A stretch of DNA of 64,000 nt from a virus: IMG/VR virus record IMGVR_UViG_3300047510_001118, positions 214,127-278,126 of that record; one strand, written 5' to 3'. The translations under genes were made by a program, and so were the position numbers. The notes under the pieces are model-generated. The model was given only the letters and a program-made list of their open reading frames with translations. It made no database searches and was not told the DNA's origin. Below are positions 35,035-60,760 of the stretch, one piece after another. Each line of letters opens with the position of its first letter. Within the stretch, counting starts at the first letter, position 1.

Positions 35035-35858
35035 ACAGCCATATCTGCTTTAATAGCAGGATCTGGATTGTAATTATCTAATATAAAATCGTCGACTACA
35101 TAGTCGGCGATTTTTTTATTGACAGTCATAAACAGAGTCGGTAACTCTTTAGGTGTTCTTGATAATTGTTCTTTTACAGCATCAACGTGATTATTATAGA
35201 TATGACAATCACCACCGGTCCAAATAAAATCCCCAACCTTTAATTTGCATTCTCTAGCAATAATATGTGTAAGTAAACTGTAACTGGCAATGTTAAAAGG
35301 CACACCGAGAAACATATCGCAACTACGCTGATACATCTGGCAACTTAAATGCCCATCTGTAACATCAAATTGGCTCAATACATGACAGGGTGGTAGAGCC
35401 ATGTCTGAAAGTTCAGAAGGATTCCAAGCAGTTAAAATATGTCTACGTCCGCTAGGATCGTTTTTAATACCATCAATTAATTGTTGTATTTGATCAACAC
35501 CAAGAAAGTCCCTCCACTGTACTCCGTAGACACGACCAAGGTCGCCTTCATAGTGTGCTTTAGGTAACCAATAGTCTGCTTTAGCGTTAGCAGTCCATAT
35601 AGTTGTTTTTGATAAGTCTCTAGTACCATGTAGGATCTCCGCAAGTCGGCGTTCGTCACCGCTCCCCTCTAAGAACCAAAGAAGTTCCGAAACTACTGCT
35701 CGCCAGGCGAGCTTCTTAGTAGTAACGGCTGGGAAGCCTTCTTGCAGATTAAAACGCATTTGATAACCAAATACGCTACGGGTTCCTACGCCCGTCCTAT
35801 CAGTCTTGCTTTTTCCGTTTTCTAGAATGTGTTGTAGTGCTTGATGATATTGTTTCAT
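35031..35858 (-). CDS. thyA: Thymidylate synthase (ThyA type)
   Basis: The 275-residue protein makes dTMP from dUMP with methylene-tetrahydrofolate. It has TDRTGVGTRSVFG near the N-terminus, the catalytic cysteine C158 in MALPPCHVLSQF, RSCDMFLGVPFNIASY and the folate-site end. All key residues for ThyA are present, with usual length. It forms a unit with DHFR, which regenerates its folate. The DHFR coding end overlaps this gene by 59 bases in another frame. The start ATG at 35858 has an AGAAG site upstream. A homologous td/frd pair exists in T4. Confidence 0.97.
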   Translation of the reverse strand: MKQYHQALQHILENGKSKTDRTGVGTRSVFGYQMRFNLQEGFPAVTTKKLAWRAVVSELLWFLEGSGDERRLAEILHGTRDLSKTTIWTANAKADYWLPKAHYEGDLGRVYGVQWRDFLGVDQIQQLIDGIKNDPSGRRHILTAWNPSELSDMALPPCHVLSQFDVTDGHLSCQMYQRSCDMFLGVPFNIASYSLLTHIIARECKLKVGDFIWTGGDCHIYNNHVDAVKEQLSRTPKELPTLFMTVNKKIADYVVDDFILDNYNPDPAIKADMAV

Positions 35859-41703: not shown

Positions 41704-42668
41704 TGATGATACCTCGCATTAAGTGGTTCGGCGTATTGTTGCGCCTGTTCAGAAATCTTTTTTAAATCGTAAAGTTGACAAAATTTAAGCAGTCGAATTC
41801 CAACTTGGCTGACATTTTTTTCTTTATCGATATTTTCTTTAATGGTGCCAAAAATTTTACTTTTAACATCATCTGGTTGTTGTGTTAAATCAATTAACTG
41901 TCTGTTTCGTTCGTAATCTTCTAATACACGATGTTCTTCACCGTTGTGATCAACCCAACGTTGCAACATGAGATTGTTCCAAGCAAAGCCTTTATTTTGA
42001 CGATCTTTAAATGCTTCTTCAAGTTTGTTTTTACGCACTTTAGGAAAGGCACTAAAAACGTTATCACTGCTATCGCCACGAATACATTTTTCAAAAAGTA
42101 ACCATTCTGGATTAGGAACTGCTTTAGGTTCTTTAGTTTTATTGTCTAAAACACGATTACCTTTTTTATCAACTATACCTTCGTGTGTAATATGATGTTC
42201 CATAACACCATTATATTGACTTACGTTAGGAGCAATTAACTGTACAAAATCACTGTCTGTACTAATAATAACGTGTTTTGAATCGGGGTGACTCTGTATC
42301 CACCCTGCGATTAAATCATCTGCTTCTAATTCTTGATGTTGTAATACTGTACAGTTAGTTTTTTCAACAATAAATTCTTTAAACTTGTCAAAACTTTCCC
42401 AGAACAATTGATCTTCTTCTTGTTCTTTAGGAGTTAAAGCGGCTCGAGCATCACTGCGATTGCGTTTATAAGGAGCATAATAGTCTTTGCGCCACGACCG
42501 TCCTTCTAAACAGAATACCACATGAGTGCCTCCAAAATCTTGCCACGCTTTTTTGATACTGTTTAGTGTAATATGAAAAGCCATGCCCAGTTTAGTGTCA
42601 GCGTCACCTTTAATGACGTGACGGGCACGGAAGAATGTGTTAGCAGTATCAACTAAAATATATGTCAT
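41700..42668 (-). CDS. rnh: RNase H / 5'-3' flap exonuclease (T4 Rnh-like)
   Basis: The 322-residue protein is a FEN/PIN-type nuclease. It reads ILVDTANTFFRARHV at the start, then YKRNR, LEADDLIAGWI, STDSDFVQL and KCIRGDSSDNV, which supply the conserved acidic metal ligands and the helix-arch basic residues of T4 RNase H. It removes RNA primers from Okazaki fragments during phage replication. Length matches T4 Rnh (305 residues). It overlaps the genes on both sides by 4 bases. Confidence 0.93.
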   Translation of the reverse strand: MTYILVDTANTFFRARHVIKGDADTKLGMAFHITLNSIKKAWQDFGGTHVVFCLEGRSWRKDYYAPYKRNRSDARAALTPKEQEEDQLFWESFDKFKEFIVEKTNCTVLQHQELEADDLIAGWIQSHPDSKHVIISTDSDFVQLIAPNVSQYNGVMEHHITHEGIVDKKGNRVLDNKTKEPKAVPNPEWLLFEKCIRGDSSDNVFSAFPKVRKNKLEEAFKDRQNKGFAWNNLMLQRWVDHNGEEHRVLEDYERNRQLIDLTQQPDDVKSKIFGTIKENIDKEKNVSQVGIRLLKFCQLYDLKKISEQAQQYAEPLNARYHQ

Positions 42669-43096
42669 GAGACTTCTGATTTACCTTCGGCTAGTTTTTT
42701 AACATTGATATATCCACCTGTTCGATCAGTCATATCAATACCCTCTTCGTCGGCTACGTCCTTACACAGTGTTCGAAACCAACGATCTACAATCTGTTCT
42801 TCAGGATCTCCCTCAAAACCATAACCTTCTTGCTTTAATTGTAGCACGAATTGTTCATTCCAGTCAAGCTCAAAAAATCCGTTACGTAAATTTTCTTTAT
42901 TGACATGAGTTTCCAAAACTGCCACATAGGGCTCTCCTAAGGCAGTGGCACGCTCTTTTGGAGACATCTTTGCCAATTCTTCTTCTTTTTTAGCAGCCTC
43001 TGCTCTAGTTTTAGCCAATGCTGTTTCGACAACTAGTTGTTCTTTTTCTTCTTCTAGTTTTTTAATCCCAGTAATTTTTTTAAGCCAATCTTTCAT
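42665..43096 (-). CDS. Conserved protein with coiled-coil N-terminus, unknown
   Basis: The start is placed at the ATG at 43096, which overlaps the QueE stop as TAATG and has GGGGGA five bases upstream; an earlier in-frame ATG lies inside queE. The 143-residue protein has a Lys/Glu/Ala-rich coiled coil of about 40 residues, then a globular part with FFELDWNEQFVLQLKQEGYG and DRWFRTLCKDVADEEG. No function is known. It is coupled to the queE gene. Confidence 0.65.
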   Translation of the reverse strand: MKDWLKKITGIKKLEEEKEQLVVETALAKTRAEAAKKEEELAKMSPKERATALGEPYVAVLETHVNKENLRNGFFELDWNEQFVLQLKQEGYGFEGDPEEQIVDRWFRTLCKDVADEEGIDMTDRTGGYINVKKLAEGKSEVS

Positions 43097-43950
43097 TATG
43101 TCCCCCATTCATTTTTAAATAGTGGAACTTGTAGTCTATCACTATATCTTAAACCGTTTTTCATTGCTAGTTCAGCAACTCTACGATTATTCAGAGTATA
43201 AACTGATTCAACACCACCTACGGGCATAAGATAACAAGATCCAGTAAAACCATTTTCTCGATACACATCTAATGTCTCTAATGCTTCTTCGGCATCTTCT
43301 TCTGTAGCAACTACAAATTTAAGATATGTATGACCAACTTCTTGATATTCGCAAATAACGTCAGGTTGAATTGCTTCGTTACGTTCTTCGCCTGAGCAAC
43401 TTAATTTAGCACTTACACTAAATGTAATTTCTTTATGATAATCTAATTCTGGCATTTGCCATTGTATTAGATAATCTTTAAATTCTGAACTTAACTTTTG
43501 AGTACCATTTGTTTCAAATGTAATTTCTTTTAGTCCTGCCATTTTAGGATGATTTAATAAATCTGGATAAGCACGTTGCCAACCCAACAACGGTTCCCCG
43601 CCTGTGATAACTAGATGTTCGTCTCGCCATTCATTGAACGGCAATATTTCCATTATACGCTCAGCAATAGCATCACTAGTAAGCATAGGACTAAGATCCT
43701 TGAACCTTGGATCCCAACTTGCGTAACTATCGCAGCCAGTAGTAACAAGAGGTAGTTCTTCATATTTGTTAAATTTATCTACTATTTGCGCGATTGCGTC
43801 TACTTCTGTGCTTAGTTGGCCTCTAGGCATACCAAAACCACTACATTTAAAGTTACAGCCAAAGGTACGCAAGAAAACAGAAGGAACGCCCATATAGCGT
43901 CCTTCACCTTGTATGCTGTAAAATAATTCTGCTATTTTTATTTTACTCAT
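43096..43950 (-). CDS. queE: QueE, 7-carboxy-7-deazaguanine synthase (radical SAM)
   Basis: The 284-residue protein begins with the QueE entry FYSIQGEGRYMGVPSVFLR, then GCNFKCSGF, and has the SAM-binding GGEP motif at 116-119 (ITGGEPLLGW) and ETNGT. QueE rearranges carboxy-tetrahydropterin into 7-carboxy-7-deazaguanine. Its cluster motif is unusual: C32 and C36 are followed by a 36-residue stretch before C73 (TTGCDSYASW), instead of the usual closely spaced third cysteine. The insertion makes the protein longer than cellular QueE (about 210-225 residues). It is in the same minus-strand cluster as FolE, a QueD-fold protein and a DpdA-type enzyme. Confidence 0.9.
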   Translation of the reverse strand: MSKIKIAELFYSIQGEGRYMGVPSVFLRTFGCNFKCSGFGMPRGQLSTEVDAIAQIVDKFNKYEELPLVTTGCDSYASWDPRFKDLSPMLTSDAIAERIMEILPFNEWRDEHLVITGGEPLLGWQRAYPDLLNHPKMAGLKEITFETNGTQKLSSEFKDYLIQWQMPELDYHKEITFSVSAKLSCSGEERNEAIQPDVICEYQEVGHTYLKFVVATEEDAEEALETLDVYRENGFTGSCYLMPVGGVESVYTLNNRRVAELAMKNGLRYSDRLQVPLFKNEWGT

Positions 43951-44240: not shown

Positions 44241-44452
44241 GCTCGATCCTTTAACCACAAATCAACCTGTGCTTCTGCTTCTTCTTGTGTGACAGCATAA
44301 GCATAGATCCAATAACAGTCATCCTTGCCTTTGATATCGAATGGTACAGGACCATTAAACAAGATGCCGTCTTCTAGCATACGTTTGACTTCAAACTTTT
44401 TTAAATTTTTGGCACGATTAATTAAATCGTTAGCCATATCTACTGAATTCAT
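44237..44452 (-). CDS. Small phage protein between folE and queE, unknown
   Basis: The 71-residue protein begins MNSVDMANDLINRAKNLKKF and ends with QEEAEAQVDLWLKDRA. Its ATG overlaps the folE stop (ATGA) and its own stop overlaps the next gene. It is soluble, with no known motif. Tight coupling to folE suggests co-regulation, not a known role. Confidence 0.6.
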   Translation of the reverse strand: MNSVDMANDLINRAKNLKKFEVKRMLEDGILFNGPVPFDIKGKDDCYWIYAYAVTQEEAEAQVDLWLKDRA

Positions 44453-45273
44453 CTTGGGGCAAACTCCTGTTGTAATTTAATATTATCAAAGAATTCTTTC
44501 TTTGTATTACCATCTTCTTTAAACGCACCTTTAAGCACTGTAGTCTGTGTTAAACTGCTATGTGCCATGATACCACGGTTTTCACAACAACCGTGCGTTG
44601 CTTGAATATAAACACCTAGATCTTTGGCTCCTGTAGCCTTTTCGATCTCCCTAGCAATGTCATTAGCAAGTTCCTCCTGGAGAGTACCACGTCGGGCGCA
44701 CCACTGTGCGATGCGTGTGTACTTACTGAGTCCGATGAGTTTCTGAGCCGCAATAATACCAATATAAGCAACGCCACTAACGGGTTGGTGATGATGGCTA
44801 CACATACTGCGAAGCTCACTGCGAACAACCAACATACCTTCGTAGCGGTCCTCCGAATCATTTGGGAAAGCCGTCGCGTCTGGTGATGGTTCATATCTTC
44901 CTGCCATTATTTCATTAAAGTACATCTTGGCAAGCCTACGTGCTGTGCCTTTTGAGTTAGGATCGTTCTCACGATCAATTAAGAGTCTATCTAATACAAG
45001 TTCAAAGGCTTCTGTGGCTTCGTCGATAAGTTTAGATTTATCTTCTTCACTTACATAGTCTGAGATGTTGTCGCCTGCCCAAAAACGCTTGTTATCACGT
45101 TTCATCTTAAAGCGAATAGTATCGCCCAAATACGCTTCTTTGTAACCTTTATCAGACATCATGTCTGCGGCTTTAACAAATACTTCTTTGCCCAAAGGTT
45201 GATATTCGTCTTTTACAAAGTCTTTATCGATCTTATGATTAATTATTGGGTCTGGTTTAAATTTTTCTGTCAT
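44449..45273 (-). CDS. folE: GTP cyclohydrolase I (FolE)
   Basis: The 274-residue protein converts GTP to dihydroneopterin triphosphate, the first step of both folate and 7-deazaguanine synthesis. It shows the zinc ligands C158 and H161 (SMCSHHHQP) and C229 (HGCCENRG), the GLSKYTRIAQWCARR loop and EDRYEGMLVV. It has about 80 residues of extra N-terminal sequence compared with the usual core. The gene has its own sigma70-like promoter with a hairpin in the leader. Since queE and dpdA are close by, a role in deazaguanine synthesis is favoured, though folate supply for ThyA/DHFR is possible too. Confidence 0.94.
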   Translation of the reverse strand: MTEKFKPDPIINHKIDKDFVKDEYQPLGKEVFVKAADMMSDKGYKEAYLGDTIRFKMKRDNKRFWAGDNISDYVSEEDKSKLIDEATEAFELVLDRLLIDRENDPNSKGTARRLAKMYFNEIMAGRYEPSPDATAFPNDSEDRYEGMLVVRSELRSMCSHHHQPVSGVAYIGIIAAQKLIGLSKYTRIAQWCARRGTLQEELANDIAREIEKATGAKDLGVYIQATHGCCENRGIMAHSSLTQTTVLKGAFKEDGNTKKEFFDNIKLQQEFAPR

Positions 45274-46046: not shown

Positions 46047-46212
46047 TCCACATTTCCTGTGCTTGTTTTTTATATTCGTTTAAATCCCACTCGGCTTGCT
46101 TGGCTTGATATTGTTCTTCACTTAATCCGTGCCAGCCTATACAATCTCCAGTGGGGCTACGACCGCAACCACAAGTTCCAATTTTTCCTTCTGGATTAGC
46201 TCTTACTTGCAT
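46015..46212 (-). CDS. Small cysteine-rich protein with CDGSH-like motif
   Basis: The start is placed at the ATG at 46212, preceded by AAAGGAA. The 65-residue protein has CGCGRSPTGDCIGWH at residues 14-28, which resembles the CDGSH iron-sulfur motif (CXCXXS...C.G.H) with one residue fewer between Ser and Cys and Ile in place of Asp. It ends in a charged helix. CDGSH proteins bind a 2Fe-2S cluster with three Cys and one His. A zinc site is an alternative. It may supply electrons, but this is speculation. Confidence 0.6.
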   Translation of the reverse strand: MQVRANPEGKIGTCGCGRSPTGDCIGWHGLSEEQYQAKQAEWDLNEYKKQAQEMWNDSCTSNRSA

Positions 46213-46579
46213 TTTTATAATTTCCTTTACTTGGTATAACGTGACGTACCCCGCCACGAGGATCTTCCATGTCTCCCTTTCTGCGGGGAATCATATGGAT
46301 GTGCGGATACATCACTGTTTGGCCAGCAGCCTCGCCACAGTTTTGCCCGACGTTAAAAGCGTCCCAACGTTCCGAGAGGACTCCGTCGGCACCAAACTTG
46401 TAGGCTGCTCTGTAACATTCCATAATGTTTTCAAAGCGTTCTTGGGTTGGCACAAAGAGCAAATGTCCCTCCGATACGGGATAGGCGTCTCTAAAAACCC
46501 AAAAGTCTTTTGTTCGATATTCAATTTCTGTCCACGGTGCTCGTCGTTCATTTAGTGCTTTCTCCAGATCATTAATCAT
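46196..46579 (-). CDS. HIT-family nucleotide hydrolase/transferase
   Basis: The start at the ATG at 46579 overlaps the PRTase stop (ATGA) and has GGAGGA upstream. The 127-residue protein has the HIT fold pattern: WVFRDAYPVSEGHLLFVPTQ, then NVGQNCGEAAGQTVMYPHIH and the active-site segment HIHMIPRRKGD. The triad is HxHxI/M rather than the perfect HxHxHxx. HIT proteins cleave nucleotide phosphoesters. It is translated together with a phosphoribosyltransferase, which suggests a joint role in nucleotide handling. Confidence 0.8.
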   Translation of the reverse strand: MINDLEKALNERRAPWTEIEYRTKDFWVFRDAYPVSEGHLLFVPTQERFENIMECYRAAYKFGADGVLSERWDAFNVGQNCGEAAGQTVMYPHIHMIPRRKGDMEDPRGGVRHVIPSKGNYKNASKS

Positions 46580-47154
46580 TTCCAGTATTCCTCCCAAGGA
46601 TATACTAACCAGCAATCTTCTTCGGCTTTGTTGACTTCCCAAGCATAATAATCTATGTCTGCTTGACTAGATAGATTATTTGTCAGTACAGCGAATCGAA
46701 CATTTTGATGCCAAATGTCTTGATCCCAGGAAGGATCATTGGGCATACATCCACTACGCCAATCTTCTTTAATCCAATTAATTGTAGCACCTGTATCATT
46801 AATATCGTCTATGATCAAGATATTTTTATAACTGTCGCCTTTTTCTAAAAGATCAGCCGCCGCTTCGAATATGCCTTCGATATCGTTTTCATCTTCAACA
46901 AATCGTTCAGATTGATATCCAAAGGCATCTTCGGCCATGCCTAAATCACTAACGGTTTGACCACCATCTCTGAGACTGACTTCTAACGGACGCATAGGAA
47001 CGCCTAAAAACTGACTGATCATTACAGCAGGAATAGCACCACCTCTGGTGATGCCGACAACATAATCAGGACGCCATCCGCTGGTAATAACACTTCTTGC
47101 TATTTCTAAACAAGCACCTTCAACATCCGACCAACTGTAATAGATTTTTTTCAT
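46576..47154 (-). CDS. Type I phosphoribosyltransferase
   Basis: The 192-residue protein has DYVVGITRGGAIPAVMISQF near residues 30-49 and the PRPP-binding motif ILIIDDINDTGAT at 112-124, both standard for purine-type phosphoribosyltransferases (hypoxanthine/xanthine-guanine type). It would join PRPP to a base. In this cluster the base might be a normal purine or a 7-deazaguanine derivative. A WIKEDWRS segment follows the PRPP loop (127-134) and is echoed in a membrane protein at 56571-56864. The substrate is not known. Confidence 0.82.
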   Translation of the reverse strand: MKKIYYSWSDVEGACLEIARSVITSGWRPDYVVGITRGGAIPAVMISQFLGVPMRPLEVSLRDGGQTVSDLGMAEDAFGYQSERFVEDENDIEGIFEAAADLLEKGDSYKNILIIDDINDTGATINWIKEDWRSGCMPNDPSWDQDIWHQNVRFAVLTNNLSSQADIDYYAWEVNKAEEDCWLVYPWEEYWK

Positions 47155-47381
47155 GATGTTAGTGCTGACGCTAATAATGACATTTCTTCTTTGGTCATGA
47201 AAAAATTGTAAACAGCAGTGTCAACAATTTCGCCGTCTTTTAGTGATTGTTGTTCAAAATCAACACTAAAAAGACCTTTGGGATTTATTACTTCGTGTTG
47301 TTTTAACACAAGTCGAAATCCTTCGTGATTTTTAATTACTGTTTCTTTATAAGTCTGTCTAACTGATTCATGTAGTTCCAT
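47151..47381 (-). CDS. Small phage protein, unknown
   Basis: The ATG at 47381 is chosen because AAAGGAG lies at a good distance; the ATG six bases upstream would overlap that site. The 76-residue protein has KETVIKNHEGFRLVLKQHEV and a C-terminal FFMTKEEMSLLASALTS. Its stop overlaps the PRTase start (ATGA). No function is known. Confidence 0.6.
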   Translation of the reverse strand: MELHESVRQTYKETVIKNHEGFRLVLKQHEVINPKGLFSVDFEQQSLKDGEIVDTAVYNFFMTKEEMSLLASALTS

Positions 47382-47778
47382 CTTCATCTCCTTTAATTGC
47401 TTCCCATGTTCTATATTTGGCCAGTGCTTTAATATAGTCGTCGTACATCTTTTTAAGTTTTGGATGTTTCTTTTCTAGTTTAACATCTCTTTCGGGCATA
47501 TTCAAGACTTTTTCAATAGTTTCCAAACGTTCTTCTAAGTCAACACCGTTAATAATCATATTACCTTTGACTTCTAAAGTGGGCGGATTACCTTGTTTAA
47601 TTGTCATTGCCTCGTTTGGATTGGTCCAGGTTACATTCGTTCCTGTTGAAGTATAGATCAAAGGACCAGTAGTAGTTCCCGTGCCAATAGTGTAACTACT
47701 GCCACTAGCACCTGTACCGGTTAAGGTTACTGTGCTATTGCTGTTTGTTAAGTTTCCGATCGTATAAGTATTTGTCAT
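47368..47778 (-). CDS. Conserved phage protein, Thr/Gly-rich N-terminus, possible structural
   Basis: The start at 47778 has a GGA site. The 136-residue protein has a Thr/Ser/Gly-rich beta-like N-terminus (residues 1-55, YTIGNLTNSNSTVTLTGTG), then GNMIINGVDLEERLETIEKV and a helical, charged end with KYRTWEAIKGDEDG. The ING.DL.ERL pattern is like that of fibre-associated proteins that mark attachment points. It overlaps the cupin gene upstream by 44 bases. The structural role is only a guess. Confidence 0.6.
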   Translation of the reverse strand: MTNTYTIGNLTNSNSTVTLTGTGASGSSYTIGTGTTTGPLIYTSTGTNVTWTNPNEAMTIKQGNPPTLEVKGNMIINGVDLEERLETIEKVLNMPERDVKLEKKHPKLKKMYDDYIKALAKYRTWEAIKGDEDGTT

Positions 47779-48196
47779 TGTGAATCCAATTATCGTCAAC
47801 AAGAAATCCCCATTCTCGTCGATGTGGACCAGGCATAAACAGCGTCCATGCTGTAACGCCTTCCTTTAATTCAATACGATGGTAACTTGTTGGACTACAT
47901 ATACGAAAGTGTCCGGGGCCACGCCATTTTCTTATTTCGCAACTTTTTGTTCCATCAGCATTAAATTGGGGAATCCATTCGTAGTAACCACCTTTGAGAA
48001 TAAGGGTGGCATAAGGCCAAGGATGATCGTGAACATCGTCCGGATCACCTTTTAAAAATTTATGTAAAAAGATATTGAAAGGAAAACGATTCCTTTCTTT
48101 TAAAAACAAATAATAACGTTCTAGATACGGCTCATTATATTGACGATCCATGATAATTCGTTTACGTCCGAGTTTATCTAAAAGTTTTAAAATCAT
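47735..48196 (-). CDS. Cupin-like metal-binding protein
   Basis: The 153-residue protein contains DDVHDHPWPYATLILKGGYY and GHFRICSPTSYHRIELKEG, the two cupin-type motifs with metal-ligand histidines (HDH and YHR). GAWTLFMPGPHRREWGF completes a double-stranded beta-helix. Similar cupins appear in marine phages with no known substrate. In a base-modification cluster it could be an oxygenase or isomerase acting on sugar or base, but nothing in the sequence fixes the substrate. Confidence 0.7.
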   Translation of the reverse strand: MILKLLDKLGRKRIIMDRQYNEPYLERYYLFLKERNRFPFNIFLHKFLKGDPDDVHDHPWPYATLILKGGYYEWIPQFNADGTKSCEIRKWRGPGHFRICSPTSYHRIELKEGVTAWTLFMPGPHRREWGFLVDDNWIHNDKYLYDRKLNKQQ

Positions 48197-49290
48197 ACAA
48201 GTCTTTCTAAAAGTGTATCTGCTGAAAAGAAATTATCTGTTAAATCTTTAGTCTGTTTACGTAGTTGTGGCAAGAACTTGTCATAGTTATCCATGTATTG
48301 AATAATCTTAGCACAAAGTTCTGGACGATGTGTTTGATATGTTTCAAAGGACTCGGTCCAGGTACTTGGATATTTGAAAGTATCGTAATACATTTCTTTA
48401 TAACTTAGTCGATCCGGCACCATAGGAATAGCATCTACAACAGCACCTTCATAACAACTGATGCCTAATGTTTCTTGTAGATTAGCACTGAACACTAGTT
48501 TTGCTTCACCTAACAAATTATGGTATTCGTTCTTTGTAAGTTGTTGATCCTGACAAACAACAAATTCATATTGTGGTAAGTGTTCTTTTAGATCTCTAAA
48601 GATTTCTACTTGTTTTTCTGGAGCAATGCGATGTGGAAACAGAATTAGATTACGTTTAACCATTCCTTTATATGTGGTTAAAGTATCTTCCATATATTCC
48701 ATAGGCCACCCTGATCGAACAATCTTTGGAATCTTTCCTTGAAGAGCATCTTGAATGTCTTCTTCCAACCAAGGGTTTTCTATCATACTATCATTTAACA
48801 AATTCTTCATAAACATTTCAATATGAAAATTTGTAGCAAAATAATTATAGTTGATAGCATGAAAGAAACTTTTTTCAGCGTGTCTAACCCACGGAGCATC
48901 ACCGATAAGTCGACCTAAGAAGTCTTGAGGATCATAACTACCAGCATGCCAAAGTGCGTGAATTTTTACAGGAATCTGTAATAGTTCACTCATATACTTT
49001 AAGTTTATGATACCAGGATGCCAAGCATCAGTAAAGATGAAGTGATCATTAGGAGCCACTGATCCACCGCAAAACAGCCGGCCCATCTGTTCAACTTGAG
49101 CAGACTTATATATATTGGTGCCGCCAAAATTAAGGAAAGCACCAGGAGTGGTCGCACTAGGAATATCTGTAGGACCAGATATAATTTGAACATTGTGTCC
49201 TCTCTTCCGTAACAGAGTTGGTAGATGTGTCTTCCACTGTGAAGTGTAGCGTGTTTCTACCGACTCTAGATCTACAAGGTAGATCGTCAT
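48193..49290 (-). CDS. GT-B family glycosyltransferase
   Basis: The 365-residue protein has a GT-B-like architecture. The C-terminal domain reads LILFPHRIAPEKQVEIFRDL, then YEFVVCQDQQLTKNEYHNLL and FSANLQETLGISCYEGAVV, with the EX7E-like donor site (QETLGISCYEGA) typical of GT4/group 1 enzymes. It could add a sugar to modified DNA bases, like the glucosyltransferases of T4, or act on host envelope sugars. It lies between a cupin and the QueD-fold gene in the presumed DNA modification cluster. The acceptor is unknown. Confidence 0.85.
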   Translation of the reverse strand: MTIYLVDLESVETRYTSQWKTHLPTLLRKRGHNVQIISGPTDIPSATTPGAFLNFGGTNIYKSAQVEQMGRLFCGGSVAPNDHFIFTDAWHPGIINLKYMSELLQIPVKIHALWHAGSYDPQDFLGRLIGDAPWVRHAEKSFFHAINYNYFATNFHIEMFMKNLLNDSMIENPWLEEDIQDALQGKIPKIVRSGWPMEYMEDTLTTYKGMVKRNLILFPHRIAPEKQVEIFRDLKEHLPQYEFVVCQDQQLTKNEYHNLLGEAKLVFSANLQETLGISCYEGAVVDAIPMVPDRLSYKEMYYDTFKYPSTWTESFETYQTHRPELCAKIIQYMDNYDKFLPQLRKQTKDLTDNFFSADTLLERLV

Positions 49291-49513: not shown

Positions 49514-49909
49514 TTAATATTTGATGAACGAACCATTTTCTCCATCTTCGGAGACCTCAATCCAAACCTCACGGCCAGGATACTTCTTGCTAATGATGTC
49601 ATATAAATCGTCTGACATCATTTCGCAACTCTTGTAGTCAAGGCTCAAAACGGAACCTTGACCATTATACAGCGACTCGAGCCATCGTTTGAACTGGATG
49701 AACTCGATGTCCCTGTCATTGTGTTGCACATTGATCCACACCCTGAAATGAAAGATGTGGCGATGAGGATAACCAAGAAACGATACATCATATTCATCTC
49801 CTGTTTTTAATTTTGGATCTTCTAGGGCCGCAGGATATTTGTGAATTCCTTCTTTGCGGAAAGTAACCCAGATCATTTTGTTAGGGCGAACATCTTGTTT
49901 AATGATCAT
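49514..49909 (-). CDS. queD: QueD/PTPS-fold protein lacking the catalytic cysteine
   Basis: The 131-residue protein aligns along its length with 6-carboxytetrahydropterin synthase. H23 (KEGIHKYPA) and H49/H51 (YPHRH) match the three zinc ligands, RDIEFIQFKRW matches the IIDF.ELK segment, and VWIEVSEDGENGSFIKY matches the C-terminal VKET segment. The QueD nucleophile Cys, four residues before the HxH pair, is replaced by Leu (L45 in FLGYPHRH), and the second catalytic His is not evident. It may therefore have a changed reaction or a structural role. Its position next to a DpdA-type gene supports a 7-deazaguanine context. The alignment was made by eye. Confidence 0.7.
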   Translation of the reverse strand: MIIKQDVRPNKMIWVTFRKEGIHKYPAALEDPKLKTGDEYDVSFLGYPHRHIFHFRVWINVQHNDRDIEFIQFKRWLESLYNGQGSVLSLDYKSCEMMSDDLYDIISKKYPGREVWIEVSEDGENGSFIKY

Positions 49910-50424
49910 TTAATAATTTTATCGTTGATATATTGTGACCAGTCTGTGAACTTACTACGATCCATTAGTGTGTGTAGACTGTGGGACCACACACCGGGAT
50001 TAGTTGCCTTAAAATCTTTGTCATCGATTTTAAGCATTGTATTATAATTCCAAAGTTTTATGTAAGGAATTGGAACACGAATCTGCGGAATAAAGTTATT
50101 GTATTCGCAGTAACCGCTTTCATGAAATTCTTCAACTTGATTAATTGGAATATCTAAACTACAAAGAATTCCTTCTTCTAACAAAGGAAAAATCATATTT
50201 TCCCAAGATTTGTGTTCTTCATAATTTTGCGGGTTAAAACTGTGATTAGCGCCAAAGAAAATATGTTTACAAAGTTCGTTGGCGTAGTGCTGTTTAATTT
50301 CAGTATATGATTGTACACCAGTTACAAACAGTGTTTTCAAACCATAGGCGGGCGTGTGTTCTATCTCTTCTCCAACGAAGAAAATAATTTTATCTTGAGA
50401 ACCGTCTTGATAATCTCTTATCAT
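49906..50424 (-). CDS. Conserved phage protein next to the QueD-fold gene, unknown
   Basis: The ATG at 50424 begins one base after the stop of the preceding gene, and no stronger start is seen; a TTG at 50481 would overlap it. The 172-residue protein contains HTPAYGLKTLFVTGVQSYTE, HIFFGANHSFNP and IDDKDFKATNPGVWSHSLH. Its stop overlaps the QueD-fold start (ATGA). Similar genes are found beside this QueD-like gene in marine T4-like phages. No enzymatic motif is clear. Confidence 0.65.
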   Translation of the reverse strand: MIRDYQDGSQDKIIFFVGEEIEHTPAYGLKTLFVTGVQSYTEIKQHYANELCKHIFFGANHSFNPQNYEEHKSWENMIFPLLEEGILCSLDIPINQVEEFHESGYCEYNNFIPQIRVPIPYIKLWNYNTMLKIDDKDFKATNPGVWSHSLHTLMDRSKFTDWSQYINDKIIK

Positions 50425-50425
50425 T

Positions 50426-50674
50426 TTAGTACTTGGTTTTTGATTTTGTACAAAGGAAGGTGCTACCTGATTCTTTTCCAACCATCGTCCACAACCGATA
50501 ATCGGCCGATAGAATACATTCGTTATAGGTTGAAAAACTATCGTCGCTCATTTTCATTAAATTTCCAGTTTCTCGAAATTCTAAGGCTACAACATATTTA
50601 GGTTTAGACCATGCTTGATATGAAACAAACAGAGCACATAGCAAAATTGTTACTAATAGGATTCGAGTTTTCAT
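50426..50674 (-). CDS. Small exported or membrane-anchored protein
   Basis: The 82-residue protein has an N-terminal hydrophobic segment after KTR (ILLVTILLCALFVSYQAWS), which reads as a signal peptide or single membrane anchor. The rest holds two cysteines (ECILSADYRLW and STFLC) that could form a disulfide in the periplasm. It overlaps the dpdA stop by 4 bases. Its role is unknown. Confidence 0.6.
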   Translation of the reverse strand: MKTRILLVTILLCALFVSYQAWSKPKYVVALEFRETGNLMKMSDDSFSTYNECILSADYRLWTMVGKESGSTFLCTKSKTKY

Positions 50675-52233
50675 TCCATGCCTTCTTCAAGTTTATCTAA
50701 ATTTTGAGCCTCTTCATCGGTAAATTCTTCACCGTGTTCTAATTGTACAGTCTCTTCTTCTGTTTCGTCAAAGAATTTGGCAAAGTTAGTGCTGGCATTG
50801 ATTGTTTTCTTACCAGTAGCACCGCGAGTTCCAATAATACTAATCCAAAATTTACTGTATTCAGTTATTATGGCTTCTGCTTCTGCTCTATCGCTGGTAG
50901 CAAAAATAGCCTCAACTATGTCTTTGAAAAACAGTCTATCAAATTTTTCTTGAACCAACATAGCAGGAACAATTCCAGCATCATATTGTCGATTGGCTTC
51001 TTGAACAGCATTAATATGCATCCAAACATTATGTCCCATTTGAATAGCATAACTAAAACTATCCCAACTGGTTTTACCAATTTTTCCAATCTTGTTCATA
51101 TCGGTTGGACCATATATACAGACATCAGATACTTTTAATTCTGCGCTGATTGGACTATCTTCAAAACCTTTGAATCGTCCATCTTGAACACCAACTGCTC
51201 CAAACGGACGATTGTCTTGATAATATTTTTTATCATCTATACTAGGAACCATTCGATACACCCACTTGGTGCGATCTTCAATTTCTGTTTGAATATAAAT
51301 TTGTCCATTGGCAGTTGCTAGGAATGGACTAGCACAGTCAAAACTAATAGTAAAATTAGGATTATGATATTTTCTAACAGCACGTTGGATGTCAGTGAGT
51401 AACGTAGCCCACTCTAATTTACTAGTACCAAGAAAGTGCATCCAGTCATGTACACCAGGTTCTAACAGTCCATCAAATCTTAACGCTACTAATCTACGCA
51501 ATACCAAATGAACATCACACATATTCTGACCACCCATAGCCCAGCCATTAAAATGACGTCCGGGATATTGTTTTGGATCGCAGTATTTTTTCATACGATC
51601 ATACCAATCATCTGCCTCGGCATGATTCTCGCCTTGTAGAACATTAAGAAACTTACAAGAACCAGTTCTATTGTTAATAAACCAATCGTTGTTAATGTAA
51701 GTACCTTGAACGGCTTCCATATAACTGTTAATACCAGTGGCTTCTCTGCCACGAGGACTACGGCAGACCCAGGCAGGAATATCAAGAATCATGCCATAAT
51801 CCATGTAAGCGTCCATCCACTTAAGAACCTGCTCACGTTTCTTTTGTGCTTTAGGACAGTTAGGATTTTTCCAATCTCCTTCCCAAACACCTTTACCAAT
51901 TTGGAAACCGCCCGAATCGCCTAACAGCCAACTGTCAGCACGATTACGATTACGTACCATATCTTCTTTAGGAGAAAATTTATTAGTATCTAAATCTGCG
52001 TGTCCAGCAGAGTATAGGCTCCAATGATATTGAAACTGTCCCTGTTGCGGATTTAACCAATTAAGACTTTCTACACCGTTGGTGAAGTTACTAGGTACTC
52101 TAGCAGGATCCACATACAGTCCTTTGACAGGATCTGGAAAACGTTGTTTTCCTACATAGGTAGCATAAAACCCGCTAAGTGCCGGTAAAAAGATAGCGTA
52201 GTCGTTCTGTGCGGCTGTTAAATTTTTATTCAT
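50671..52233 (-). CDS. dpdA: DpdA-like tRNA-guanine-transglycosylase-family DNA base exchange enzyme
   Basis: The 520-residue protein has TGT-family active-site segments. DSGGFQ at 106-111 is the substrate-binding loop, LDIP has D151, LQGE is at 199-202, WAMGGQN at 231-237, and SFDCASPF holds D299 at the place of the TGT nucleophile aspartate. The CXCXXC zinc site of bacterial TGT is not seen, as is known for phage and bacterial DpdA proteins. DpdA enzymes swap guanine in DNA for a 7-deazaguanine. folE, queE and a QueD-fold gene lie in the same cluster. The C-terminal 60 residues are acidic. DpdA is favoured over tRNA TGT by length and context. Confidence 0.85.
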   Translation of the reverse strand: MNKNLTAAQNDYAIFLPALSGFYATYVGKQRFPDPVKGLYVDPARVPSNFTNGVESLNWLNPQQGQFQYHWSLYSAGHADLDTNKFSPKEDMVRNRNRADSWLLGDSGGFQIGKGVWEGDWKNPNCPKAQKKREQVLKWMDAYMDYGMILDIPAWVCRSPRGREATGINSYMEAVQGTYINNDWFINNRTGSCKFLNVLQGENHAEADDWYDRMKKYCDPKQYPGRHFNGWAMGGQNMCDVHLVLRRLVALRFDGLLEPGVHDWMHFLGTSKLEWATLLTDIQRAVRKYHNPNFTISFDCASPFLATANGQIYIQTEIEDRTKWVYRMVPSIDDKKYYQDNRPFGAVGVQDGRFKGFEDSPISAELKVSDVCIYGPTDMNKIGKIGKTSWDSFSYAIQMGHNVWMHINAVQEANRQYDAGIVPAMLVQEKFDRLFFKDIVEAIFATSDRAEAEAIITEYSKFWISIIGTRGATGKKTINASTNFAKFFDETEEETVQLEHGEEFTDEEAQNLDKLEEGME

Positions 52234-57233: not shown

Positions 57234-59642
57234 TTATGCGGCAGGTGTAGAAATAGTATTGCCACCAGGTTCCGCTGCCGGCGCCGCCGCAGTTTTCATA
57301 CTGGCTAGTTTATCTGCTTTCTTTAGAACGTTGTTTAATCTAGTCTTAATGTCATCTGGTAAAGTTTGAACTGCTTTTTCATCTTTAGCATATTTCTGTA
57401 TGATTTCTAGATTTTTCAATAATTCTGCTTTGTCCGCTGGATCCATTTGGGCTTCGGGACTCTTTAACCAATTATATAGAGCAGCCACACCGCCTGCTAT
57501 TCCGAGGGTAATAAAAGCACCTCGTTTTGTAACTTTGCCTAGAACTTTTTTACCAAATCCTTTAAGTCTTTCCCAAGCAGAAGGCTTACCAGGTTCTGGT
57601 GCTGGTGTAGGTCCTGGTCCTGGTGTAGGTCCTGGTCCTGGTACTGGTAGACCCTTTCTCATCTTCTCAATGTCAAACGAAGAAAGTTTTTCTGAAGGGT
57701 TAGCACGATTAAAATATTGATCAGGTACACCAGGAACTTTTTCCCAAGTTTTGCCACCTACTCTAATAACTCCAGGCAACGGTGGTCCTGGATCAAGTGG
57801 GCCAGCCTCACTTAAAATTTCATTTTCGGATAACAATGTTAGTTGAAGTATAGATATTTGTTCACTGGGAGTAAAATCATTAATGTTTTCAAGTACAAGT
57901 TTTTTAAGGTCTTTAATAGATAGCTCGTCAATACTTTCGGCAATCTTATATTTGCCCATGATTCTTTCTACAACAGTTAATGCCTGTACCAATTGATTCT
58001 TGGCCAAAATTGCTTTTCCGTTTTCTAATGCTTTGATTAACTCTGGAGTAATTTTGCCAGTTTCGGGCATACCAGCCATCTTCTCAAATTGTTTAATTGC
58101 GTCTGCGGTCTCAGTTCCCATCTTACCGTCTGCGCCAAATCTAGGTAATTTAAAACCTAAACCTAGTAATAACTCTTGAACTTTTTTAACATCACCGCCG
58201 CCTGTAGTTGTTGTAGGATCTGTTTTAGTATCTGTCTTATTATCTGTTTTAGTATCTGTCTTATTATCTGTCTTAGCATCTGTATCTGTTTTAGTATCAG
58301 AACTAAATTGTGCTGGGAGATTAAGGGCACGATTTGCCAATTGTAAAATTTCAGGATCATCTGGGAAATCTGTTTTCAATCCAGCGGCATAGGTCTGTAA
58401 TTCTTTGTATTCTGCAGCAGTTAATTCTTCACTTAGTGTTGTACCTTCAGCAATACGTTGTATACGAGCTATTAATTCGCTCATACTTTCAGGAACAACT
58501 TTTGATTGTCCAGATGTAGTGCCTGGTGCTGGAGATGTAACTTTAGGTTGATTAGCCTTGGCTAGTAATTCTTTTACTCTGGCCAATCTTTCTTCTTTGG
58601 ATTTAGCAGTTCCGTCTTTGTTGTAATCTGCTGGAAACTTTTTCTCAGGTTCAGGCTTAGTTAAACTGTAGTCAACTTTGCCTTTTGTAGGATCTTGATT
58701 TCCTGGTTTAGCAGGGTTTAAAGTAGTAGTATCGGTTTTAGACAACGCATCGGCTTTGGCCTTCTCGTCGGCTTTGTTTTTTTCTTCCACTGCTTTGATT
58801 GCGGCTACAATTTCTGCTTTAACTGCTTCAATTTCTTTTTGTGTTTCAGGATCTTGTTTTAGTTGATCAGACATGCTGTCAAATTTTAAAACTATAGAAT
58901 TAATTTCGTCAATAATTTTTTTAAGTTCGGCATTGCTATTTTGCGCACCACCAAATCCTTTGCCACTAGTTGTGCCGTCTGGATTGATAGTTACTCTTTC
59001 TTCAACGTCTTGATCAATAATTTCGTCTTGGAATTCGTTGATCAATGATTCAAAAATACTTGATTCAGTTTTAAATTTAAATTTATCTGGGTTTAAACCA
59101 AAAAATGTTCCACTGCCTGAAGCGGCACTGTCGGAGCCACTAGGACCAGCAGTTTTCATTTTTTCTACAGCGGCTTTTAATTGTGCTCCTAGATCTTTAA
59201 GTTTAGGAAGATTTTCTGTTTTAAATTTTTCGTACTTTTGCTTAGTTACAACACCTTGGCTTCTAGTTCTAAGATCTTGGTCGTATTGGCCTTTTTCGTC
59301 GCCTCTAAAAGCTCGTCCTAGTGCTGTAGAAGTTTTAGCATTATCGGGGATTAAGCCTAGGTCTGCTAGGGCACGATCGGATCTTTCGCTACCAGTGGCT
59401 CCTATGCTGATTCGTCCAGGACCACCCATTCCTTGATTTACGCTCTGTTTTCCAACAAAGCCTCCACTAATAGGATCATATAACCCAGGAAGTTTGTGTT
59501 TCCATGCTAGATCGTTAAGTATTTCAGCACGAGCTTGCTCATCATTTTCTTTGCCTTTTACAGCCGCTTCAACATCGTCTAATGATATTGCTTCAGCAAG
59601 TACTACTTCGTCTAGTTTGTTTAAAATTGCTCTTATATCCAT
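57234..59642 (-). CDS. Large low-complexity protein with peptidoglycan-binding domain, probable virion protein
   Basis: The 802-residue protein has a short helical start (MDIRAILNKLDEVVLAEA), long polar regions, a Asp/Thr/Lys repeat (about 450-475), a peptidoglycan-binding-type domain at about 484-547 (VKKVQELLLGLGFKLPRFGA and TADAIKQFEKMAGMPETGKI), Pro/Gly repeats (about 665-680) and a hydrophobic segment near 700-722 (AFITLGIAGGVAALYNWL). No lysozyme or amidase residues are seen. A GATAAATA late box precedes it and a strong terminator follows. It may be carried in the virion and contact the host wall. Confidence 0.6.
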   Translation of the reverse strand: MDIRAILNKLDEVVLAEAISLDDVEAAVKGKENDEQARAEILNDLAWKHKLPGLYDPISGGFVGKQSVNQGMGGPGRISIGATGSERSDRALADLGLIPDNAKTSTALGRAFRGDEKGQYDQDLRTRSQGVVTKQKYEKFKTENLPKLKDLGAQLKAAVEKMKTAGPSGSDSAASGSGTFFGLNPDKFKFKTESSIFESLINEFQDEIIDQDVEERVTINPDGTTSGKGFGGAQNSNAELKKIIDEINSIVLKFDSMSDQLKQDPETQKEIEAVKAEIVAAIKAVEEKNKADEKAKADALSKTDTTTLNPAKPGNQDPTKGKVDYSLTKPEPEKKFPADYNKDGTAKSKEERLARVKELLAKANQPKVTSPAPGTTSGQSKVVPESMSELIARIQRIAEGTTLSEELTAAEYKELQTYAAGLKTDFPDDPEILQLANRALNLPAQFSSDTKTDTDAKTDNKTDTKTDNKTDTKTDPTTTTGGGDVKKVQELLLGLGFKLPRFGADGKMGTETADAIKQFEKMAGMPETGKITPELIKALENGKAILAKNQLVQALTVVERIMGKYKIAESIDELSIKDLKKLVLENINDFTPSEQISILQLTLLSENEILSEAGPLDPGPPLPGVIRVGGKTWEKVPGVPDQYFNRANPSEKLSSFDIEKMRKGLPVPGPGPTPGPGPTPAPEPGKPSAWERLKGFGKKVLGKVTKRGAFITLGIAGGVAALYNWLKSPEAQMDPADKAELLKNLEIIQKYAKDEKAVQTLPDDIKTRLNNVLKKADKLASMKTAAAPAAEPGGNTISTPAA
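57598..57650. repeat. Pro-Gly coding tandem repeat
   Basis: An 18-base unit (GGTGTAGGTCCTGGTCCT) is repeated twice with partial flanking copies and encodes PGPGPTPGPGPTP. It is a flexible linker within the 802-residue protein. Confidence 0.7.
58219..58297. repeat. Lys/Asp/Thr coding tandem repeat
   Basis: Imperfect units of 12 and 24 bases (CTGTTTTAGTAT, CTGTCTTATTAT) encode repeats of TDTKTDNK type in the 802-residue protein. Such repeats change length easily. Confidence 0.7.
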
Positions 59643-59750: not shown

Positions 59751-59843
59751 CTAGGGTATGTTCCTTCCTTCATAAAATAGACCGCCTAGACCGCAGCCTA
59801 GACGAGCCAAACATTCTATGAAAGTATCTAATATTTCTTTCAT
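59751..59843 (-). CDS. Tiny 30-residue protein coupled to the Pro/Ala-rich gene
   Basis: This short frame starts with an ATG that overlaps the stop of the preceding gene as ATGA and encodes MKEILDTFIECLARLGCGLG and GLFYEGRNIP. The -1 frame beyond the stop reads LGPFGVMCPAAGLLTGFATL, which looks like the continuation of a small membrane protein, so the gene may be broken by a frameshift or joined by slippage. Evidence is limited to coupling and composition. Confidence 0.4.
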   Translation of the reverse strand: MKEILDTFIECLARLGCGLGGLFYEGRNIP

Positions 59844-60760
59844 CTTAGACCTGCGATGCGAAGCATTTGTTGTAATAAACGATTATCTTTTTCGTGGTAC
59901 TCGATACTTTCACGTTTTGTACGGCCAGTGCTTGGATCCCACTTTCCCGCGCCTGGATACTGTGCTCCAGTCATGTTCCAATTTGGGTTCTTAGCTCTCC
60001 AAGCATACTCATCTTGAGATGCTGTAGTAATATTAGTAGTTCCACCTGTTCCAGTTTTTACTTGTCCCGGAACTGTGCTTAATCCAGTGTCAGTGTTAAC
60101 GCCTGGTTCAGCCTGTGTTGGCTGTCCGTCGGCTGCGGTAGCAGACTGGGCATAACCACCTTGACTTTGTTGTGCTGGTGCGTATCCGCTTGCGCCACCT
60201 GCTGGTGCTGGAGCAGGTTCAGGTTCGGGAGTTGGTTGTGGAGTCTCTGCAGGTGGATTTGGTTTGTCTGCTTGCGGCTGAGGAGTGCCAAACGCTGGAC
60301 TACTACTTTGAGCAGTTACTCCTAACGCATTTTTTTCTGGAGGAGGAGTAACTGCTGGAGTTGGCGCTGGCGTTGCCGGTGTTGCTTGTTGAGCCTGAGC
60401 AGGATTGGTTATTGTAGTAGCAGTTCCTGCTGTCTGAGAACCTTTTGCAGCATCAACGGCAGGTCCAAATTGTTGTTCAGCGGCTCGTGTCTGTGGTCCC
60501 ATAATACCGTCTGCTTTAATTTTAGCACCAGCCTTGATTAATTCTTGCTGTCTTGCTAGTACCTGAGGATCTTTTTTAGCAGCCGGTTTAGCAGCCGGCT
60601 TAGCCGCTGTTGTTGGCTGTGGGGTTTTCATAGCAATAGCCTGTTGAGCCATTGCAGCCGGATCCATACCTGCGCCTTGCGGCCCTGGAGTTGTAACATT
60701 TCCTGGTTTTCCAATGTTACCTGTCTGATATTCTTGTATAAGTAAATCTCTAATTTTCAT
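59840..60760 (-). CDS. Pro/Ala-rich low-complexity protein, possible virion protein
   Basis: The 306-residue protein is mostly Pro, Ala, Gln and Thr. Residues about 65-98 contain a degenerate peptidoglycan-binding motif (LIKAGAKIKADGIMGPQTRA then AEQQF). The C-terminus is a charged helix, RLLQQMLRIAGLR. The N-terminus MKIRDLLIQEY is like those of its neighbours. The ATG directly follows the stop of the 50-residue gene (TAAATG). Its function is unknown, perhaps a packaged wall-binding protein. Confidence 0.6.
   Translation of the reverse strand: MKIRDLLIQEYQTGNIGKPGNVTTPGPQGAGMDPAAMAQQAIAMKTPQPTTAAKPAAKPAAKKDPQVLARQQELIKAGAKIKADGIMGPQTRAAEQQFGPAVDAAKGSQTAGTATTITNPAQAQQATPATPAPTPAVTPPPEKNALGVTAQSSSPAFGTPQPQADKPNPPAETPQPTPEPEPAPAPAGGASGYAPAQQSQGGYAQSATAADGQPTQAEPGVNTDTGLSTVPGQVKTGTGGTTNITTASQDEYAWRAKNPNWNMTGAQYPGAGKWDPSTGRTKRESIEYHEKDNRLLQQMLRIAGLR

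Follow-up and report, generated by a model that had tools for sequence, protein, structure and literature searches.

The stretch of viral DNA considered here, hereafter the window, comprises 64,000 nucleotides and corresponds to positions 214127-278126 of the 278,126-base virus record IMGVR_UViG_3300047510_001118 (G000:C1). Its minus strand carries a gene cluster in which enzymes of 7-deazaguanine synthesis lie together with a glycosyltransferase (GT) and a phosphoribosyltransferase (PRTase). In the direction of transcription, the order is DNA polymerase, sliding clamp, a DpdA-like gene, an unknown open reading frame (ORF) at 49906-50481 and a QueD-fold gene at 49514-49909, followed on the 3' side by GT, cupin, two small ORFs, PRTase, HIT, FolE, and QueE. 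The features are as follows.

50671-52233, minus strand: DpdA-like transglycosylase of the TGT superfamily, 520 amino acids (motif columns, hhalign, homologue context)
49906-50424, minus strand: conserved protein between the DpdA-like and QueD-fold genes (alignment; start placed at invariant Met 20, the ORF being open to 50481)
49514-49909, minus strand: QueD-fold (T-fold) protein, phrog_17812, 131 amino acids (predicted structure, Foldseek, adjacency to GT)
48193-49290, minus strand: glycosyltransferase, GT-B fold, GT4-like, 365 amino acids (predicted structure, invariant residues, gene context)
47735-48196, minus strand: cupin, cysteine-dioxygenase-like, 153 amino acids, optional (phrog_4786, three-His site)
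47368-47802, minus strand: ORF overlapping the 3' end of the cupin gene, kept in close relatives
47151-47387, minus strand: small ORF upstream of PRTase, kept in close relatives
46576-47154, minus strand: 6-oxopurine phosphoribosyltransferase, 192 amino acids (PF00156, profile matches, invariant residues)
46196-46582, minus strand: HIT-domain protein, 128 amino acids, optional (PF01230; usually directly after PRTase)
44449-45273, minus strand: FolE, GTP cyclohydrolase I (PF01227, E 5.1e-39)
43096-43950, minus strand: QueE-like, 7-carboxy-7-deazaguanine synthase (phrog_2076, E 2.7e-52; Radical_SAM PF04055)
42665-43108, minus strand: 147-amino-acid protein directly downstream of QueE (same position in 108 cases)

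Neighbouring genes overlap by a few bases, as in an operon: GT and cupin share 4 nt, and PRTase and HIT share 7 nt. A sequence-only reading of the window had placed four co-directional, partly overlapping families (PRTase, HIT, cupin, and GT) among deazaguanine genes. Its coordinates and strand are right, family matches were obtained, and the flanking deazaguanine genes (FolE, QueE, DpdA-like) are real. Two details required correction, in that the HIT gene begins at the ATG at 46582 and not with the longer ORF, and the run of four also contains, between cupin and PRTase, the ORFs at 47368-47802 and 47151-47387. FolE and QueE are encoded together, as is characteristic of 7-deazaguanine DNA modification. 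A megablast search of the cluster against phages gave no match.

The AlphaFold model of the GT (pLDDT 90.5) shows a GT-B fold, and Foldseek matches it to GT4 enzymes, with BshA first (E 3.4e-9), followed by glycogen synthase and MshA; two tetrahydrobiopterin glucosyltransferases appear lower in the list. The 50 listed matches are mostly of the BshA, MshA, and glycogen-synthase types, and the alpha- and beta-glucosyltransferases of T4 (AGT and BGT) are not among them. Searches against the Pfam glycosyltransferase models returned nothing above cut-off. Residues R221, E225, K226, and E281 are invariant in 150/150 aligned relatives, and position 273 is E or D in all of these, one gap excepted, so the Arg/Lys phosphate contacts and the (E/D)X7E motif of GT4 enzymes are both present. 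Because this usual pattern of donor-binding residues is conserved, the GT is predicted to be an active enzyme.

The association of this GT with deazaguanine genes was followed in scans of viral contigs around 80 close relatives of the GT, 80 of a cyanophage GT only about 25% identical to that of the window, and 49 of the PRTase, gene presence being counted where the anchor was flanked by 8 kb or more on both sides. Around the close relatives, the DpdA-like, QueD-fold, and QueE genes are each found in 23/23 loci, FolE and cupin in 22/23, PRTase in 20/23, and HIT in 10/23. Around the distant relatives the DpdA-like gene occurs in 40/40, the QueD-fold gene in 39/40, FolE in 38/40, and PRTase in 35/40, with cupin in 2/40 and HIT in 1/40. 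As these relatives are not independent, the GTs were collapsed at 50% identity, giving eight lineages, seven of which have DpdA-like, QueE, or FolE genes together with the QueD-fold gene; PRTase is found in four of the eight, and HIT and cupin in two each. In the eighth lineage, that of Xanthomonas phage PhiXhv-15, genes for a PIG-L deacetylase and a Gat-QueC fusion precede the GT, and both QueE and QueD are encoded in the record. This phage was considered as a counter-example, a GT without deazaguanine genes, and was rejected as such when the neighbour annotated as a glucosamine-synthase-type aminotransferase proved to be the Gat-QueC fusion. The QueE homologue of PhiXhv-15 (220009-220896) contains an in-frame TAG.

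The arrangement is met again in well over 100 viral contigs, as well as in named phages that are unrelated, which is more than chance would give. Named members are PA5oct, Phosso, ACP17, BUCT-ZZ01, and X1; the DpdA-like gene of PA5oct shares 1 nt with its GT gene, and in X1 the GT abuts a gene annotated as queuine tRNA-ribosyltransferase. Among 13 phage records chosen for holding a GT, PRTase, or DpdA-like homologue, all 13 have QueE, among them two, Cellulophaga phiST and Brevundimonas StAshley, that only the PRTase had retrieved. With the QueE of the window as query, 138/50,697 phage records are matched, a base rate that is a lower bound and that should be read with the fact that larger genomes also carry more genes. 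Gene adjacency across such distant lineages is hard to account for in these ways, and the GT is a core partner of the deazaguanine genes.

Physical linkage might nevertheless be all that joins them. The phage DNA would then contain a plain, unglycosylated 7-deazaguanine (e.g. dCDG), with the GT acting on a different target, for instance polysaccharide of the host surface, a protein of the phage, or a further DNA base such as hydroxymethyl-uracil. GTs and nucleotide-sugar enzymes of jumbo cyanophages have been interpreted as capsule or lipopolysaccharide modification (PMC7824862), a thymidylate-synthase-like gene lies in the window at 35031-35858, and the record has a separate island of sugar enzymes at 60-100 kb. 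We hold this explanation to be unlikely, since the linkage of GT to DpdA-like, QueE, and FolE genes holds across GTs only about 25% identical, the cluster adjoins the DNA polymerase and clamp genes, and the linkage is kept in bacterial cassettes cut down to DpdA-like, transporter, and GT. These cassettes are found in contigs of Azospirillum isscasi (L235) and Aurantimonas sp. (L236), where the DpdA-like gene is accompanied by a Vut_1/YhhQ-like transporter and a GT, without FolE or QueE; one of the two also has the QueD-fold gene. E. coli YhhQ has a role in preQ0 transport (PMC5372724). It is possible that the cassettes are mobile modification or defence elements. An integrase-like ORF, recognised by eye, lies near the A. 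isscasi cassette.

Sugar supply is seen mainly in the relatives. Judged from Pfam matches and positions, 86 loci have GalE, and in 76 cases the closest cluster gene upstream of it is GT. UDP-glucose dehydrogenase is present in 93 loci, and smaller numbers carry a cytidylyltransferase (55), a phosphomannomutase-like HAD gene (25), or a DegT aminotransferase (17). In the record of the window itself, epimerases lie near 70-76 kb and UDP-glucose dehydrogenase near 91 kb. The run at 60-100 kb (G000:C1:60000-100000; L230, L231) consists of overlapping minus-strand genes that include these epimerases and the dehydrogenase along with five or more radical-SAM proteins, of which one also has a B12-binding domain, and it resembles a sugar or secondary-metabolite island. 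Because the island holds several radical-SAM genes, its sugar genes may serve something else.

Incorporation of the base would fall to the DpdA-like protein. It carries DSGGFQ, LQG, GG, and FDCxxP motifs in the order of TGT enzymes, the DSGG-Q and catalytic-Asp columns being invariant in 30 diverse members. An hhalign comparison with E. coli Tgt gives E 0.0024 at a probability of only 12%, with LQG, GG, and DCxxP collinear. In Vibrio phage 2.275.O, QueF, QueC, FolE, and a YhhQ-type transporter are encoded close to a homologue of the protein, and it is the order of the motifs together with this context that justifies the label DpdA-like. Comparison of its profile with phage 9g DpdA by hhalign was not significant, nor was that with the X1 protein, though DSGG(F/L)Q and QG are kept in the latter alignment. 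Proteins of phrog_10773, a second DpdA-like family without a Pfam match, replace the window-type protein in ACP17, X1, and BUCT-ZZ01. In 39 loci (e.g. L085:5173-6051, L082:7966-8841), genes for an alcohol-dehydrogenase-like protein and a GFO/IDH/MocA-like oxidoreductase separate the DpdA-like gene from the cluster gene that follows. The gene of the conserved protein at 49906-50424 is present in 162/221 loci.

The QueD-fold gene stands directly upstream of GT in 172 cases. Its identity came from structure prediction, as sequence-profile searches of the PDB with this protein, like those with the DpdA-like and 49906-50481 proteins, gave no real match. The AlphaFold model (pLDDT 91.9) is a T-fold whose best solved Foldseek matches are E. 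coli QueD (E 8.5e-5) and PTPS enzymes, and 3/40 family members have a PTPS Pfam match (best E 0.0077). Residues H23, H49, and H51 are invariant and correspond to the zinc ligands of QueD. For canonical QueD, no PF01242 match was found in the 278 kb record, which may be incomplete, while the PTPS enzyme is present in 12/13 related records. QueC (PF06508) was found neither in this record nor in PA5oct, Phosso, ACP17, or BUCT-ZZ01. In locus L128 and 13 more, an NAD-synthase-like PP-loop ATPase with weak similarity to QueC (E 4.9e-5) lies between QueE and the gene corresponding to that at 42665; by amidation of the carboxylate, it could stand in for QueC.

The PRTase matches PF00156 (E 2.7e-11), and a profile search retrieves an archaeal purine PRTase from Pyrococcus (1vdm, E 1.4e-20) as well as Sulfolobus GpT-1/2, HGPRT, and XGPRT. 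The phosphoribosyl pyrophosphate motif and the Asp that acts as general base at purine N7 are both present, and D116, D117, D120, G122, and T124 are the same in all 131 sequences aligned. In BUCT-ZZ01 the PRTase gene borders on QueE, in Brevundimonas StAshley it comes after FolE, and in PA5oct it stands before QueE; a position directly beside QueE was counted in 40 cases. This position, and the replacement of the Lys that contacts purine O6 (Asn in 119/131 sequences, Lys in 11/131 at the aligned position), would lead one to think that the enzyme makes a phosphoribosylated deazaguanine, either as a precursor or as the ribosyl decoration that the sequence-only reading had offered as an example. 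Such a role is rather improbable, as the invariant Asp has no N7 target on a 7-deaza base and thus counts against a deazaguanine substrate, the closest solved relatives are 6-oxopurine PRTases, and a DpdA-type exchange already gives a nucleoside in DNA. Moreover, GMP reductase is found in 14 loci of relatives, several times next to PRTase, and a comparison of one of them with E. coli GuaC gave 58% identity. Guanine recycling fits this evidence better than ribosyl attachment. On account of the 6-oxopurine family, the conserved N7 Asp, and the GMP reductase in some relatives, we propose that the PRTase would recycle to GMP the guanine released by DpdA and would not be a decorating enzyme. A DpdA base exchange must free one guanine per modified site, and salvage to GMP, and then to GTP or IMP, would be the simplest role for the enzyme.

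The HIT protein matches PF01230 above cut-off (E 5.9e-9), and its HxHxH triad is incomplete, the first His being Tyr or Trp in all 56 sequences and the second and third being kept; judged by the Pfam score and these residues, it is a HIT-fold protein with an altered triad. The cupin matches phrog_4786, annotated as cysteine dioxygenase (E 1.4e-37), and its three-His metal site (H56, H58, H106) is intact in 69/69 sequences. Cupin directly follows GT in 61 cases and HIT follows PRTase in 53. Both might therefore be needed for decoration, for example through an iron-dependent oxidation of the base that creates the hydroxyl to be glycosylated, and the retained cupin ligands, the two of three triad His, and these positions would agree with it. 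We regard this as very unlikely, because HIT and cupin are missing from six of the eight GT lineages, and relatives of the cupin occur in 84 phage records, mostly in unrelated context (the two inspected have no deazaguanine genes nearby). Their limited spread argues against core roles, and both are lineage-specific, optional accessories. The idea of the four genes as a single decoration set is thus not borne out, HIT and cupin having relatives in phages without the pathway nearby. A further decoration of the base is well supported for the GT, which has deazaguanine partners in all eight lineages, intact GT4 residues, and adjoining nucleotide-sugar genes in relatives.

Elsewhere in the window, at 57234-59642 and 59840-60760, are two Ala/Pro-rich proteins with short segments that look by eye like peptidoglycan-binding ones.

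In our estimation the cluster is probably, with moderate confidence, a post-replicative DNA hypermodification system that yields a glycosylated 7-deazaguanine in phage DNA, with guanine recycling by the PRTase. From the gene families, folds, conserved residues, and gene linkage observed, we infer a reaction order, an acceptor, a sugar, and a part for the PRTase. FolE and QueE, with QueD, canonical in most relatives, would convert GTP to a 7-deazaguanine base, which, as QueC is absent and a CDG-type base needs none, is probably 7-carboxy-7-deazaguanine unless a host QueC is used. The DpdA-like enzyme would exchange guanine in DNA for this base, and the GT, with the QueD-fold protein, would move a sugar from a nucleotide-sugar onto it, before or after insertion. 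The PRTase would return the ejected guanine to GMP, and HIT and cupin would be lineage-specific accessories.

Several points weigh against this proposal. The DpdA-like family is not recognised by the Pfam TGT model PF01702, which one of 30 members matches at E 0.25. The QueD-fold protein lacks the catalytic Cys and Asp-His pair of QueD, and its candidacy as a plain substitute for QueD is weakened by the canonical enzyme in the related records. Because the O6-contact Lys of the PRTase is mostly Asn, the enzyme is not certain to be specific for guanine and may have a changed specificity. No nucleotide-sugar gene is present in the window cluster, those of its own record lying 170-190 kb off, and a carboxylate acceptor would mean an unusual glycosyl ester. 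Surface sugars are another purpose for which large phages employ GTs (PMC7824862).

A broader claim, which we consider evenly balanced, is that a widespread and unnoticed deazaguanine branch exists, with a glycosylated 7-deazaguanine DNA base, lineage-specific sugars (GalE, UDP-glucose dehydrogenase, and aminotransferase or deacetylase variants), and recycling of guanine by its own PRTase, sometimes with GMP reductase. To our knowledge, the deazaguanine bases of phage DNA carry small groups at position 7, namely cyano, amide, amidine, aminomethyl with its methyl and formyl derivatives, and carboxy. A conserved GT in the deazaguanine set predicts a bulky sugar at this position, a guanine counterpart of the glucosyl-hydroxymethylcytosine of T4, and such a base, if real, would be likely to affect CRISPR as well as restriction and Type IV enzymes. 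From PRTase and GMP reductase it would further seem that phages handle the guanine freed by base exchange, a cost of which we found no discussion. Isolated phages with the set (the PA5oct group and Acidovorax, Xanthomonas, and Sinorhizobium phages) make the prediction directly testable. A literature search of titles and the beginnings of abstracts gave no proposal of a glycosylated deazaguanine in DNA; an earlier mention of the GT in Cui 2023, Iyer 2013, or a 2024 review is possible.

The cluster shares with the known phage 7-deazaguanine DNA modification (FolE/QueD/QueE/QueC/DpdA; Hutinet 2019, PMC6884629) FolE, QueE, an adjoining DpdA-like gene, and replication genes. It differs in adding a GT4-type GT, a QueD-fold paralogue, and a 6-oxopurine PRTase, in having no QueC, and in a DpdA-like protein whose divergence puts it beyond the Pfam TGT model; neither glycosyl nor phosphoribosyl appears as a word in the main text of that study. 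PA5oct has the same set of DpdA-like, GT, QueD-fold, PRTase, and QueE genes as the window, and Iyer 2021 (PMC7824862) names its deazaguanine synthesis and incorporation system, with no GT or PRTase mentioned as part of it in the passages located. BshA of bacillithiol synthesis is the best structural match of the GT, and the GT of PhiXhv-15 neighbours a PIG-L/BshB-like deacetylase, but a base, not malate, is the acceptor expected here, and no other bacillithiol gene was seen. Mannosyl- and galactosyl-queuosine of animal tRNA show that this kind of chemistry exists on RNA (PMC12518689); both they and the predicted phage base would carry a sugar on a 7-deazaguanine nucleoside, the one in RNA and the other in DNA. 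The T4 alpha- and beta-glucosyltransferases are likewise phage enzymes that coat a modified DNA base with sugar, the base being hydroxymethylcytosine in T4 and, as predicted here, a deazaguanine.

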